Source: Thermodesulfobacteriota bacterium (lineage in GTDB: Bacteria > Desulfobacterota > Syntrophorhabdia > Syntrophorhabdales > JANXAF01). From it: 33,680 nucleotides of DNA. Below the pieces are notes generated by a model. That model was not told the DNA's origin. It was given only the letters and a program-made list of their open reading frames with translations, and made no database searches. The stretch spans positions 30,704-64,383 of the forward strand of contig JANXAF010000010.1 in assembly GCA_025062045.1 (NCBI GenBank). Direction: 5' to 3'. Made by a program: the position numbers and the translations under genes. Each line of letters opens with the position of its first letter. The first letter of the stretch is position 1. This document shows positions 3 through 32,225 of the stretch, one piece after another.

Positions 3-1139
3 CTCAGGGAAGGAATTTTTCTCAGACGAACTAACCGTTTTGTTTGCGAATGCGCAATTGACGGTGAACAGACTTTCGCACACCTTCCAAATTCAGGAAA
101 ACTGATGGAACTTCTTACTGAAAATAGGAAGGTTTACGTGGTAAAAAATGATAAGGGAAAGTTGCCTTTTAAAATCCGGTTTGTGGAAAAGGATGGTCTA
201 AAAATTCTCGTTGATACAGTTCTCACTAATCAACTGGTATGTCATTTAGTAGAACGTGATTTGATCCCTTCCCTTGTCGGTTACAGGGTCCTAAAGAAAG
301 AAGTGCCGGTCAACCGAAGAAGGATCGATTTTATTTTGGAAAAAGATGGAAGGAAGCTCTGTCTTGAGGTTAAGAATTCAACCCTTTTTAGAACCGTTCT
401 CTCCATGTTTCCCGACTGCCAAACAGAAAGAGGAAGGTCCCACATCAAAGAGCTCCTAAAACTTAAAAATGGGGACACGGACGCTGGAATCTTATTCGTC
501 GTTAGCTCTCCAACTGTCAAGTATTTTCTTCCCGACTTCCACAACGATTTTCACTTTGCCAGAGAGCTTTTTTTGGCATCTGAAAAAATTTGGATTGGTG
601 CAATTTCTTTCGGCTTTGGCGAGGATCTCTCAATTTCGGAAGTAAAAGAGCTTTCTATCCCTTGGCATGAGCTTATCAAGGTAAAGAAGGATTCAGGGGT
701 TTACTTATTAGGTCTAAAGATCGAAAAAGACGTGGATCTCCAAATAGGAGCCCTGGGACAGGTTTCCATAAGAAGCGGTTACTATGTCTATTCCGGATCC
801 GCAAAAATGTGTCTTAAAAAAAGAATCGAAAGGCATGGGAGGAAAAAAAAGAAAGTTTTTTGGCACATAGATTATCTCACATCAAAATTTAGACCCTACT
901 TTCACCTTCCCGTAAGAATCGATAAGCCCTATGAGTGTTACATAGCTCGTAGGCTTGCTGCGATGTGTGATTGGATAATACCGAATTTCGGCTCCTCAGA
1001 CTGCAAATGCTTAAGCCATCTTTTCGGATTTGAAAAGGACCCATTAAAAAATGAAAGATTTATAGATTTCGTACTTTACTTAAGACTAGGTTTAATAGAA
1101 GAAAGGCTCGAAATGATTGAGAAGGAACATTTTCTGTGA
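3..1139 (+). CDS. sfsA: SfsA-type nuclease fused to C-terminal DUF123 domain (5' end outside window)
   Basis: The reading frame is open from base 3, and the 34 codons before the first ATG (105) already match the SfsA N-terminus (RRTNRFVCECAI, then AHLPNSGKLMELL). The true start is therefore a few codons upstream of the window. Numbering from the ATG at 105, the SfsA body covers about residues 1-190 and carries a PD-(D/E)xK-like nuclease core: D75 in RRRIDFIL, then E88 and K90 in LEVKNS. Residues about 197-310 form a DUF123 (GIY-YIG-like) domain with GVYLLGL, YYVYSGSA, ECYIARRL and FGSSDCKCLSHLFGF. SfsA proteins bind nucleic acid and are thought to be DNA/RNA nucleases; the name from sugar fermentation is historical. 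DUF123 is also known fused to endonuclease III in archaea. The nitroreductase follows directly. The domain calls are firm; the substrate is unknown. Confidence 0.9.
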   Translation, partial: LREGIFLRRTNRFVCECAIDGEQTFAHLPNSGKLMELLTENRKVYVVKNDKGKLPFKIRFVEKDGLKILVDTVLTNQLVCHLVERDLIPSLVGYRVLKKEVPVNRRRIDFILEKDGRKLCLEVKNSTLFRTVLSMFPDCQTERGRSHIKELLKLKNGDTDAGILFVVSSPTVKYFLPDFHNDFHFARELFLASEKIWIGAISFGFGEDLSISEVKELSIPWHELIKVKKDSGVYLLGLKIEKDVDLQIGALGQVSIRSGYYVYSGSAKMCLKKRIERHGRKKKKVFWHIDYLTSKFRPYFHLPVRIDKPYECYIARRLAAMCDWIIPNFGSSDCKCLSHLFGFEKDPLKNERFIDFVLYLRLGLIEERLEMIEKEHFL

Positions 1140-16764: not shown

Positions 16765-16902
16765 TTCCCCTGTTTACTTTAAGGGGTTAGGTGATGAGGG
16801 GGAAAATATTAGTTTGCCTTAGTTTTACCTCCTTTTTTGTGAGTTTATATCTGAATTCCTTTATTCCCTCAGCAACTAACCCTCAAGAATTTTTCTATTT
16901 AA

Positions 16903-17073
16903 ATCCCCGCAATGCCGTGTAAATAGTAGATCTTGAACCTCAAATTTAAAGTGGGTGCCTCGCTTGTGCCTTTGGCTTCTCGCTTTCGCGAGCTTGCTCC
17001 CGGCAACAAGATCTGGCTCCCATAGATGAGGTGTTGGCTCGAAGTCACTACTTATCACGGACATCGCAGGGAA
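16903..17073 (-). ncRNA. ssrS: 6S RNA
   Basis: The roughly 170-nt stretch just downstream of zapA folds into the 6S rod. The 5' end CCCTGCGATGTCCGTG (from 17071) pairs with CACGGCATTGCGGGG (to 16905) in a closing stem of about 15 bp. Family-like elements inside are GAGCCAACACC near the 5' side and GAAGCC...GGCACAAGCGAGGCACCCAC on the 3' side, flanking the central bubble that mimics an open promoter. 6S RNA binds sigma70 RNA polymerase in stationary phase. The zapA-6S order is the same as in E. coli and many proteobacteria. The ends are set from the stem and may be off by 5-10 nt. No separate promoter was found; processing from the zapA transcript is possible. Confidence 0.85.
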
Positions 17074-17075
17074 CC

Positions 17076-26190: not shown

Positions 26191-26650
26191 GAGATGGCAT
26201 GCCTTCGTAGATGGGGCCTCATCTGGTAATCCCGGTCCCGCCGGGATAGGTGTTATTCTTTATGCTCCAGACGGAAAAAAAGTTTTAAGTGAGTCCATTT
26301 ATCTTGGGATTACAACTAATAACGTTGCGGAGTATGAAGCTTTAAAACACTCATTAAAAAGGGCACTACAATTTTCGGCCAAAGAGATTGCCGTGTATTC
26401 TGATTCTCAGCTCCTCGTCAACCAGATTACGGGGATTTACAAAATAAGAGACAAAAAACTAAAGGCTTGTTTTAAAGAAGTAGCTGAGCTTATTGGCAGG
26501 TTCGACAGATTTTTGATACAATATGTCCCAAGAGAGGACAACAAAGCAGCTGATAGCCTAGCGAGGGAGGCGATAAAGAGGGGTAGACGGGTGGCCGCCC
26601 CAGAAGACGGGGAGGAAAGTCCGGGCACCGCAGAGCAGGATGGTCTCTAA
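26180..26650 (+). CDS. rnhA: Ribonuclease HI family protein whose 3' end overlaps RNase P RNA
   Basis: RNase H removes RNA from RNA-DNA hybrids. The 156-residue product has the catalytic set D11 (FVDGASSGNPG), E51 (NNVAEYEAL), D75 (VYSDSQLLV) and D125 (NKAADSLARE). It lacks the basic protrusion of E. coli RnhA, like the short RNase HI group. A normal family end would fall near residue 134 (AREAIKRG). Here the frame continues 22 residues through the 5' end of rnpB before a TAA, and this tail (RRVAAPEDGEESPGTAEQDGL) is RNase P sequence read as protein. It starts 11 nt inside the Zn-ribbon gene, so the two are co-translated. There is no strong Shine-Dalgarno sequence. Confidence 0.92.
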   Translation: MKSERWHAFVDGASSGNPGPAGIGVILYAPDGKKVLSESIYLGITTNNVAEYEALKHSLKRALQFSAKEIAVYSDSQLLVNQITGIYKIRDKKLKACFKEVAELIGRFDRFLIQYVPREDNKAADSLAREAIKRGRRVAAPEDGEESPGTAEQDGL

Positions 26651-26936
26651 CCGGGACCGGGGGTAACCCCAGGGAAAGTGCCACAGAAAATAGACCGCCA
26701 CAGCAAAAGCTGTGGTAAGGGTGAAAAGGTGAGGTAAGAGCTCACCGCTTCCCTGGTGACAGGGAAGGCACGGTAAACCCCATCCGGTGCAAGGCCAAGC
26801 AGGAGTCACGCAAAAGGCGTGAATGGGTTGCTCGCCCATCAATCCGGGTAGGCCGCACAAAGACCTATAGTGGGTCTCAGAGGAATGGCCACCGTCCCGA
26901 AAGGGATACAGAACCCGGCTTATAGTCTACCCCTCT
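26578..26936 (+). ncRNA. rnpB: RNase P RNA, bacterial type A
   Basis: This is the catalytic RNA that trims tRNA 5' ends. Type A landmarks are in order: GAGGAAAGTCCGGGC (P4 5' side), GGGTAACCCCAGGGAAAGTGCCACAGA, the repeated GTAAGGGTGAAA, GAGGTAAGAGC, GGCACGGTAAACCCC, GGTGCAAGGCCAA, and ACAGAACCCGGCTTATAG (P4 3' side). The ends are set by an 11-bp P1 stem: GAGGGGTAGAC (26578-26588) with GTCTACCCCTC (26925-26935). Length is about 358 nt. The first 73 nt are also the end of the RNase H reading frame. I saw no clear promoter just upstream, so the RNA may be processed from the Zn-ribbon/RNase H transcript. Confidence 0.97.
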
Positions 26937-26966
26937 TAAAGAGAAATACGATGTAAGGGGGAAGAC

Positions 26967-30586: not shown

Positions 30587-31243
30587 TTAAAAAGGTCCAA
30601 TCCATGAGCGGACTTTTTTTATGAACTCCCTCACCTTCTTCCTGTCCTTCATTCCCTCAGGATCGTCTAGTTTGCTATTTGCATCTACCCCGTAAGGTCG
30701 TACCACCTCAAGGGCCTCTAAAACATTTTCAGGAGATAGTCCTCCGGCAAGGATCACAGGTTTTGACACTGACTTCCTAATAAATCTGCATATGTTCCAG
30801 TCACAGGGGATCCCCGTCCCTCCTATTCTATCCTCAGTCATGGTGTCAAGGAGTAAAGCATCCACGGTCTCTTCGTATCTTTTGGCGTATTCCAGAGGGT
30901 TTTCTCGATTGACGTGCACTGCCTTTACGAACTTCGCAAAAGGAAAAAAGTTTCTCAGTTTTACCACATTCTCGGGTGACATATCCCCTTGAATCTGCAG
31001 AACCTGACATAAGGAGAAACGAAAAAGACCCTTAAGCTCTCCTACATCTTCTAAGTGGGTCACAAAAACAGTTGTCACATATGGGGGAAGATTTTTTACG
31101 ATTTTTCGAATTGTGTCAATTTCTGTTGCGTCCTCTGCCTTATAGCGGACACCGCATATGAAACCCAAACCATCTGATCCCTCTTCGACGCACATCATAG
31201 CCTCATCCAACGTTCGAATTCCACAGATTTTAACCTTTACCAT
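30587..31243 (-). CDS. trpF: Phosphoribosylanthranilate isomerase
   Basis: TrpF catalyses the Amadori rearrangement of phosphoribosylanthranilate in tryptophan synthesis. The 218-residue TIM barrel opens with VKVKICGIRTLDEA, with the catalytic cysteine in KICGI. GGTGIPCDW and VILAGGLSPENV mark the phosphate-binding strands. The catalytic aspartate segment near the end reads YGVDANSKLDDPEG, where most homologs have VDVSSGVE. No other trp gene is adjacent, so it is a lone trpF here. A promoter with an operator-like palindrome lies upstream. Confidence 0.9.
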   Translation of the reverse strand: MVKVKICGIRTLDEAMMCVEEGSDGLGFICGVRYKAEDATEIDTIRKIVKNLPPYVTTVFVTHLEDVGELKGLFRFSLCQVLQIQGDMSPENVVKLRNFFPFAKFVKAVHVNRENPLEYAKRYEETVDALLLDTMTEDRIGGTGIPCDWNICRFIRKSVSKPVILAGGLSPENVLEALEVVRPYGVDANSKLDDPEGMKDRKKVREFIKKVRSWIGPF

Positions 31244-31301: not shown

Positions 31302-31394
31302 ATATTGGAATTGGTCTTTGGGGAGGGGCTTGTTAAAAAAGTCACATAATTGGCCCGGAAGCTAAAAGTGATTTTAAAATTTTGAAAAAAACTC

Positions 31395-31423
31395 TTGACA
31401 AGCTACATAAGAAACCTTATAAT
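31395..31423 (+). promoter_or_regulatory. Full-consensus sigma70 promoter
   Basis: TTGACA (31395-31400) and TATAAT (31418-31423) are separated by exactly 17 nt, matching the sigma70 consensus at all twelve positions. An A/T-rich stretch just upstream (31371-31390) resembles an UP element. This should be among the strongest promoters in the genome. The transcript would begin near 31430. Confidence 0.85.
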
Positions 31424-31429
31424 AAGTGC

Positions 31430-31529
31430 GAAGATTGTGTTTGAATTCACAACCTCAAGCAATCACCTCCACTAAGCTTCTCATAATAACCCCCCTTCCC
31501 CCTGGGAATTACCCAGGGGGTTTTTATTT
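31430..31529 (+). ncRNA. Predicted small RNA of about 100 nt
   Basis: Bounded by a full-consensus promoter (31395-31423) and an intrinsic terminator (31498-31529), this segment has no coding gene. Visible structure: a 5-bp hairpin TTGTG/CACAA (31435-31452), then a stem AAGC/GCTT (31457-31479) whose 15-nt loop displays CACCTCC (31464-31470), the complement of a Shine-Dalgarno sequence. Six Cs (31490-31495) and the terminator stem follow. Such C-rich, anti-Shine-Dalgarno loops are typical of base-pairing sRNAs that repress translation. It ends 33 nt before the tolQ ATG, so a leader with transcription attenuation is the alternative, but I see no antiterminator pairing. I recognise no named RNA family. 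The rest of the trpF-tolQ gap (31244-31562) holds only the promoters listed here. Confidence 0.65.
31498..31529 (+). terminator. Intrinsic terminator of the predicted small RNA
   Basis: CCCCCTGGG (31498-31506) and CCCAGGGGG (31512-31520) form a 9-bp stem, eight of the pairs G-C, with an AATTA loop, directly followed by TTTTTATTT. This is a textbook Rho-independent terminator on the plus strand, placed between the consensus promoter and tolQ. Confidence 0.92.
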
Positions 31530-31556
31530 ACAAGACCTAAACTCCTAGTGTATATT
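31528..31556 (+). promoter_or_regulatory. Possible tolQ promoter
   Basis: TATATT (31551-31556) lies 7 nt before the tolQ ATG, with a weak TTACAA (31528-31533) 17 nt upstream. If used, the first base of the ATG would be the transcript start. It would let tolQ be expressed despite the terminator directly upstream. Confidence 0.3.
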
Positions 31557-31562
31557 TAGCTT

Positions 31563-32225
31563 ATGTCGTTTCTGGGAGGCTTCTCCGGCGGTATTTTGGG
31601 AATGATAGTCCATTCCGGACCTGTCGCCAAGGCTGTGATGCTTGTTCTCCTTTTTTTTTCGGTGGTTTCCTGGGCTATCATCTTTTTTAAAATAAGGCAG
31701 TTTAACGCCATGGACAGAGAGGGGGAGCGGATAAGTTCTGTAATTGGTGAGATAGAATCATTAAAAAAACTACTCGCCGCAATGAGATCTTTCAGGGGAA
31801 GTCCCTACTACAGACTCGCCCTTATCGCATATGAGGCCCAAAGTAAAGGATTTAGGGAAAATCCAGGCCATACAAAGGAATTCACCCTTGATGTTGAAAA
31901 GAGACTAAAAATAGGGGTTGAGGAGGAGACTGAAAGGCTACAGAACTATCTTTCGTTTCTCGCAACCACCGCTAACACTGCGCCGTTTGTTGGTCTTTTT
32001 GGGACTGTCTGGGGAATTATGGACTCCTTCAGAGAAATAGGAATAAGGGGGTCCACAAGTCTCTCTGTGGTCGCCCCTGGTATCAGTGAGGCACTTATCG
32101 CAACGGCTTTCGGTTTACTCACAGCGATTCCGGCGGTTGTCGCTTACAATTATCTGGTGATAAGGAGTAGAAGGATCTCCAATCGGCTCGAAAGGTTCTC
32201 AACCTATCTTACAACTCTCGCTTAA
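31563..32225 (+). CDS. tolQ: TolQ-like inner-membrane proton channel subunit
   Basis: The 220-residue product has the TolQ/ExbB/MotA topology: an N-terminal helix (about 18-42, AKAVMLVLLFFSVVSWAIIFF), a cytoplasmic loop, and two C-terminal helices in FLATTANTAPFVGLFGTVWGIMDSF and GISEALIATAFGLLTAIPAVVAYNY. These GTVWGI and EALIATA motifs are shared by proton-driven motor subunits. With TolR it uses the proton gradient to drive envelope constriction at division. TolQ is preferred over ExbB because a tolR and a TonB/TolA-like gene follow. There is no Shine-Dalgarno sequence. Confidence 0.9.
   Translation: MSFLGGFSGGILGMIVHSGPVAKAVMLVLLFFSVVSWAIIFFKIRQFNAMDREGERISSVIGEIESLKKLLAAMRSFRGSPYYRLALIAYEAQSKGFRENPGHTKEFTLDVEKRLKIGVEEETERLQNYLSFLATTANTAPFVGLFGTVWGIMDSFREIGIRGSTSLSVVAPGISEALIATAFGLLTAIPAVVAYNYLVIRSRRISNRLERFSTYLTTLA

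Follow-up and report, generated by a model that had tools for sequence, protein, structure and literature searches.

In Bacillus and Staphylococcus, the small RNAs RoxS and RsaE pair through C-rich motifs with G-rich 5' regions of mRNAs and are linked to NAD/NADH (PMC5419742). A Rex site lies just downstream of the transcription start of RoxS, and Rex acts there as a repressor (PMC5419742). The Rex motif is TTGTGAAW4TTCACAA, 18 bp in length, and Rex binding is lowered by NADH (PMC2883068). AbcR1 of the alphaproteobacteria represses livK at the ribosome-binding site/Shine-Dalgarno sequence (PMC3712013), and in enterobacteria one RNA, GcvB, controls many amino-acid uptake genes (PMC11878033). 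AbcR1 and AbcR2 carry UCCUCCC in a hairpin loop, are stabilized by Hfq and are encoded by tandem genes beside lsrB. GcvB has a GU-rich pairing region and is under GcvA control.

Here we analyzed a stretch of 33,680 nucleotides of DNA (the window) from a bacterium of the order Syntrophorhabdales, which almost certainly encodes a stand-alone, independently transcribed small RNA (sRNA) upstream of tolQ. The features of this locus predicted from the sequence are as follows.

31330 to 31347, plus strand: distal Rex-like operator TTGTTAAAAAAGTCACAT, two mismatches to the Rex consensus TTGTKAANNNNTTMACAA
31395 to 31423, plus strand: sigma-70 promoter TTGACA-17-TATAAT, 12/12 match (TTGACA 31395-31400, TATAAT 31418-31423)
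31430 to 31529, plus strand: sRNA transcript of about 100 nt, spanning promoter to terminator, with the 5' end placed 7 nt past the -10 hexamer
31435 to 31452, plus strand: proximal Rex-like operator TTGTGTTTGAATTCACAA, two mismatches to TTGTKAANNNNTTMACAA, overlapping the 5' end of the RNA
31463 to 31471, plus strand: UCACCUCCA, unpaired in the fold, conserved with variation in most loci and lost in family f2
31477 to 31499, plus strand: core CUUCUCAUAAUAACCCCCCUUCC, nearly invariant over the order, unpaired, antisense to Shine-Dalgarno sequence plus start codon
31498 to 31525, plus strand: intrinsic terminator CCCCCUGGG-AAUUA-CCCAGGGGG-UUUUU with a 9-bp stem
31527 to 31556, plus strand: tolQ promoter TTTACA-18-TATATT, 10/12 match, a neighbor outside the sRNA

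The two operator-like palindromes, the core antisense to start codons and the tolQ promoter after the terminator go beyond what an earlier note, made from the letters of this DNA, had described. By comparison with known systems, the likeness is divided: the locus resembles RoxS in its predicted control, and AbcR1 and GcvB in its predicted targets, with neither RoxS nor AbcR1 matched by sequence in the tests made. Like RoxS, it has a predicted Rex operator at the transcription start (31435-31452), here with a partner 105 bp away. It differs from RoxS/RsaE in belonging to a different phylum, in giving no sequence match (Rfam, gathering and lax thresholds), in having two operators and in a core that also spans the spacer, the AUG and the early codons. 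With AbcR1/AbcR2 it shares an anti-Shine-Dalgarno motif and livK as predicted target, but it is a single copy beside tolQ and its anti-Shine-Dalgarno region is unpaired. Complementarity to the starts of solute-binding-protein genes, as expected of AbcR/GcvB-like function, was found for livK in 30 genomes and for TAXI- and DctP-type proteins identified by sequence resemblance; no sequence match to GcvB was found. The Cia-dependent RNAs of Streptococcus (csRNA; RF02379) likewise have a terminator after an open C-rich stretch, but have a different regulator and belong to a different phylum, and the covariance match to RF02379 is weak and below threshold (25 bits, cut-off 57, E 0.46).

The RNA gene is located on the plus strand between trpF (30587-31243, minus strand) and tolQ (31563-32225), and the promoter, the 9-bp terminator with a T-tail and the roughly 100 nt without a coding gene that the earlier note had reported are all present. 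The promoter is the sole 12/12 match in the region scanned, and TTGACA-16..18-TATAAT occurs once in the whole window, versus a mean of 0.03 in the base-shuffled window. The terminator DNA, CCCCCTGGG-AATTA-CCCAGGGGG-TTTTT, forms the best stem in the window, where no other is of equal quality, and the trpF-tolQ interval contains no open reading frame (ORF) of at least 60 amino acids. The window also holds genes for 6S RNA and RNase P RNA (16900-17075, minus strand; 26579-26938, plus strand).

The RNA has a folding z-score of -3.3, for which the terminator accounts nearly entirely; the terminator stem is paired at 92% over 24 relatives, among which covariation is absent. Ahead of it, positions 31462-31497 form an open single strand in the predicted fold, which holds both CACCTCC (31464-31470) and the C6 run (31490-31495) seen earlier. 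The idea that an AAGC/GCTT stem (31457-31460 / 31476-31479) presents CACCTCC in a loop did not hold. The letters of the stem exist, but it is missing from the minimum-energy and centroid folds, and in 24 relatives 46% of its pairs form, one of them in just 2 of the 24; CACCTCC lies instead in the open strand, with no conserved loop. The anti-Shine-Dalgarno tail at the 3' end of 16S rRNA is UCACCUCC, and UCACCUCCA (31463-31471) carries the same letters. Pairing with Shine-Dalgarno sequences, as proposed before, is supported, with the main element being the downstream core CUUCUCAUAAUAACCCCCC and not the CACCTCC loop.

When 60 relatives were searched at the DNA level, the RNA turned up in 42 of the 45 other genomes in the order (E 1e-37 to 2e-6); the three without a match are 66%, 75% and 90% complete, and among 14 genomes of other orders the best match had an E value of 0.04. 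A covariance model run over 297 genomes of the phylum gave strong matches confined to the order; of the roughly 285 genomes outside it, 5 had marginal matches (E 1e-3 to 1e-2), with an unconvincing layout. Rfam gave no match at the gathering threshold and only look-alikes at a lax threshold. Wherever the locus is long enough to judge, tolQ follows the RNA on the same strand. On the other side of the RNA, the upstream neighbor varies by genus (L002-L021, L102-L125) and is trpF only in the window genome. An apparent second copy in genome G026 was set aside, as both copies are at contig ends and probably represent one locus split by the assembly.

Within the RNA, CUUCUCAUAAUAACCCCCCUUCCCCCUGG is almost invariant over the order and most of the body varies. 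The relatives bore out the expected conservation and synteny upstream of tolQ, but covariation was not found among the orthologues, nor was a conserved antiterminator. Constraint on the sequence of an unpaired strand without covariation is what is expected of a base-pairing RNA. We class the RNA as a new family of sRNAs, of a known kind and confined to the order Syntrophorhabdales. The earlier suggestion that this is a new, independent sRNA with the capacity to pair with ribosome-binding sites is supported by order-wide conservation, synteny, absence from Rfam and targets at start codons.

In reverse complement, the core spells out a complete translation start, GGGGGG-UUAUU-AUG-AGAAG, so that it covers the Shine-Dalgarno sequence, spacer, start codon and first codons of complementary starts. 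A minus-strand ORF beginning in the complement of the core (ATGAGAAGC...) was rejected because its frame is broken by length differences of 1-2 nt among orthologues. A search of the 46 genomes of the order for GGGGGTTATTATGAG, allowing no more than one mismatch, returned 53 places in addition to the RNA itself, versus 7 for the reversed pattern. This control is a mild one, since gene starts are enriched in any string that combines a Shine-Dalgarno sequence with ATG. At 44 of the 53 places that ATG opens an ORF of at least 60 amino acids. LivK-type periplasmic binding proteins are the leading class (14 matches), the member in the genome of the window (own genome) being a Peripla_BP_6 protein; the remaining matches correspond, by sequence resemblance only, to TAXI/DctP-type binding proteins, acyl-CoA synthetases and CBS-domain proteins. 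The own-genome livK orthologue (L254; AGGGGGTTACCATGAAAAG) was found among the 15-mer matches, and a 19-mer with at most three mismatches matched only the RNA itself in this genome. A partial regular-expression scan for Hfq gave no match.

For duplex predictions, positions 31460-31499 of the window RNA were paired with the best livK orthologue of 30 genomes in three families, orthologues that are related and hence not independent. The mean was -29.5 kcal/mol (n = 30; range -21.5 to -38.0), and 87% of these orthologues were at or below -25 kcal/mol versus 3% of own-genome starts (747 starts sampled from about 0.8 Mb of stretches; mean -14.8 kcal/mol). Mean values for comparison starts were -13.6 for tolQ (n = 42), -15.2 for acs (n = 19) and -17.7 kcal/mol for livH (n = 30). 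With -21.5 kcal/mol, the own-genome livK gives the weakest pairing in the set of 30; the last gene of the own-genome livK operon encodes a CoA ligase, and the start of this gene, GGGGGGATCATTATG, also pairs well (-29.0 kcal/mol). None of 60 permuted cores paired with the livK set as well as the real core, and the same was true of 60 permutations that kept ACCTCC, CAT and CCCCCC in place. Over the 747 own-genome starts the real core did no better than permuted ones (59 versus 54 at -22 kcal/mol; not significant). On these predictions, livK is very probably a target of the RNA. We regard livK as the secure prediction and the wider list as provisional because own-genome starts show no excess over permuted cores; targets other than livK are mostly uncertain.

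A GGGGG Shine-Dalgarno sequence precedes 37 of the 747 own-genome genes, including 8 of 12 aromatic/phenylphosphate genes, 4 of 10 solute-binding proteins and 3 of 8 CoA ligases, an enrichment that is suggestive, the classes having been partly seeded from the same list and partly chosen post hoc. Among the genes of this type, one cluster (L386) contributes the alpha and beta subunits of phenylphosphate carboxylase (NCBIfam equivalogs), a delta-like subunit below the cut-off and phosphoenolpyruvate-synthase-like subunits; several binding proteins and CoA ligases are of this type too. Most genes of this phenylphosphate carboxylase/synthase cluster (L386:6400-18400; C3:46400-58400) have unusual G5-G7 Shine-Dalgarno sequences. 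The core also matches 14 of 15 positions at a conserved site near base 1510 of L192 and L194, from two genera; the site precedes an HU-like gene by about 40-60 nt and so is away from the start codon.

The two Rex-like palindromes flank the promoter. Of 43 orthologous loci, 33 have the distal operator with at most two mismatches, versus 0.4 in shuffles, and TTCACA of the proximal operator is kept in most loci. In about three quarters of the loci the operator centers are 103-106 bp apart, or ten helical turns, with 105 bp being typical. In the family of the window, the proximal operator is at about +6 to +23, so that the strong expression anticipated in the earlier note is unlikely to be constitutive. 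The promoter scores 11-12/12 in all three genomes of this family. Elsewhere in the order TTGACA/TATAAT is mostly weak or missing and a -10-like hexamer overlaps the proximal operator; based on this, the transcription start in other families is probably shifted relative to the operators.

A Rex domain is encoded in 45 of 46 genomes, and the own-genome Rex passes the cut-off of the NCBIfam Rex equivalog. Each genome has 0-2 copies of the exact Rex consensus, versus 2 control matches in total. These copies precede an acetyl-CoA-synthetase-like gene in 19 loci, a glutaryl-CoA-dehydrogenase-like acyl-CoA dehydrogenase in 5 loci, an HndB-like gene and, in genus g12, the RNA itself, the acs and HndB identities being by sequence resemblance only. 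In L199-L225, exact motifs lie about 100-135 nt upstream of the acetyl-CoA-synthetase-like genes and also before the glutaryl-CoA-dehydrogenase-like gene. A Rex regulon thus likely exists in the order, and we consider Rex, with good confidence, to be the regulator of the RNA.

The same start-codon-blocking sRNA could instead be controlled by a CRP/FNR-family protein bound at the operators, in which case the signal would not be NADH/NAD+. CRP-family helix-turn-helix proteins are present in all 46 genomes and recognize similar half-sites, which is why Rex is likely and not proven; TGTKA/TCACA would suit CRP too, and the promoter of family f3 is weak, as at activated promoters. At the distal site, however, the inner A-A/T-T pairs are conserved and fit the 18-bp Rex motif, the rare exact sites adjoin NADH-linked acyl-CoA and hydrogenase-type genes, and a site over the transcription start is in the position of a repressor. 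We therefore think control by CRP/FNR unlikely and keep Rex as the preferred regulator.

Other explanations concern the RNA itself. That it always precedes tolQ on the same strand would agree with a cis-acting leader or attenuator, with read-through into tolQ unless the terminator forms, which the earlier note had named as the alternative. A separate tolQ promoter of the TTTACA-17/18-TATATT type is conserved right after the terminator in most loci, and in three genomes (L102-L104) the RNA and tolQ are about 300 bp apart. These two observations make a tolQ leader unlikely; in addition, neither a conserved antiterminator nor covariation was found and the core pairs poorly with the tolQ start (-13.6 kcal/mol), so that we give this reading very little weight. 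The tolQ promoter ends about 7 bases ahead of the tolQ ATG, and in the window genome no Shine-Dalgarno sequence precedes tolQ; the tolQ mRNA may be leaderless. A general anti-Shine-Dalgarno RNA, acting broadly on translation with no defined regulon, would account for the 16S-tail letters in UCACCUCCA and for genome-wide pairing no better than that of permuted C-rich cores. Yet conservation peaks in the start-codon-matched core and not in UCACCUCCA, and the livK pairing is kept in three families and beats permutations retaining ACCTCC, CAT and CCCCCC; a general role is accordingly quite improbable. An equally slight chance as for the tolQ leader is left to a conserved terminator or DNA element with no functional RNA. 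Almost all of the folding energy is indeed in the terminator and covariation is lacking, but the approximately 20 nt ahead of the terminator are near-invariant order-wide while the flanks diverge, and they are complementary to start codons.

We favor, with some confidence, a Rex-controlled, trans-acting sRNA that would block uptake of electron-donor substrates at high NADH. At low NADH/NAD+, Rex would occupy both operators, perhaps with the 105 bp between them drawn into a loop, and the RNA would be repressed. As NADH accumulates, Rex would be released and the RNA made. The core would then pair with the Shine-Dalgarno sequence, spacer, AUG and first codons of solute-binding-protein mRNAs, livK first, with acyl-CoA ligase and phenol-carboxylation genes probably being further targets. 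Such pairing would block ribosome entry, so that less electron donor is imported and the NADH load drops, in a negative feedback.

Searching the literature for Syntrophorhabdus and small RNA yielded nothing relevant; if our reading is true, the redox circuit would be one that the papers searched do not describe for syntrophic deltaproteobacteria. Syntrophs live near thermodynamic equilibrium and their uptake of electron donors must match the removal of hydrogen by their partners, and how this is regulated is poorly known. We tentatively propose an order-wide redox valve for syntrophy, a possibility that we hold at somewhat less than even, in which NADH overload would keep the livK transporter operon, the CoA ligases and the phenol carboxylation genes from being translated, these targets sharing a G5-6 Shine-Dalgarno/UUAUU/AUG signature. 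If true, the RNA would tie the NADH sensor Rex to substrate uptake, and the RoxS design of Rex plus a C-rich sRNA would have arisen independently in another phylum.
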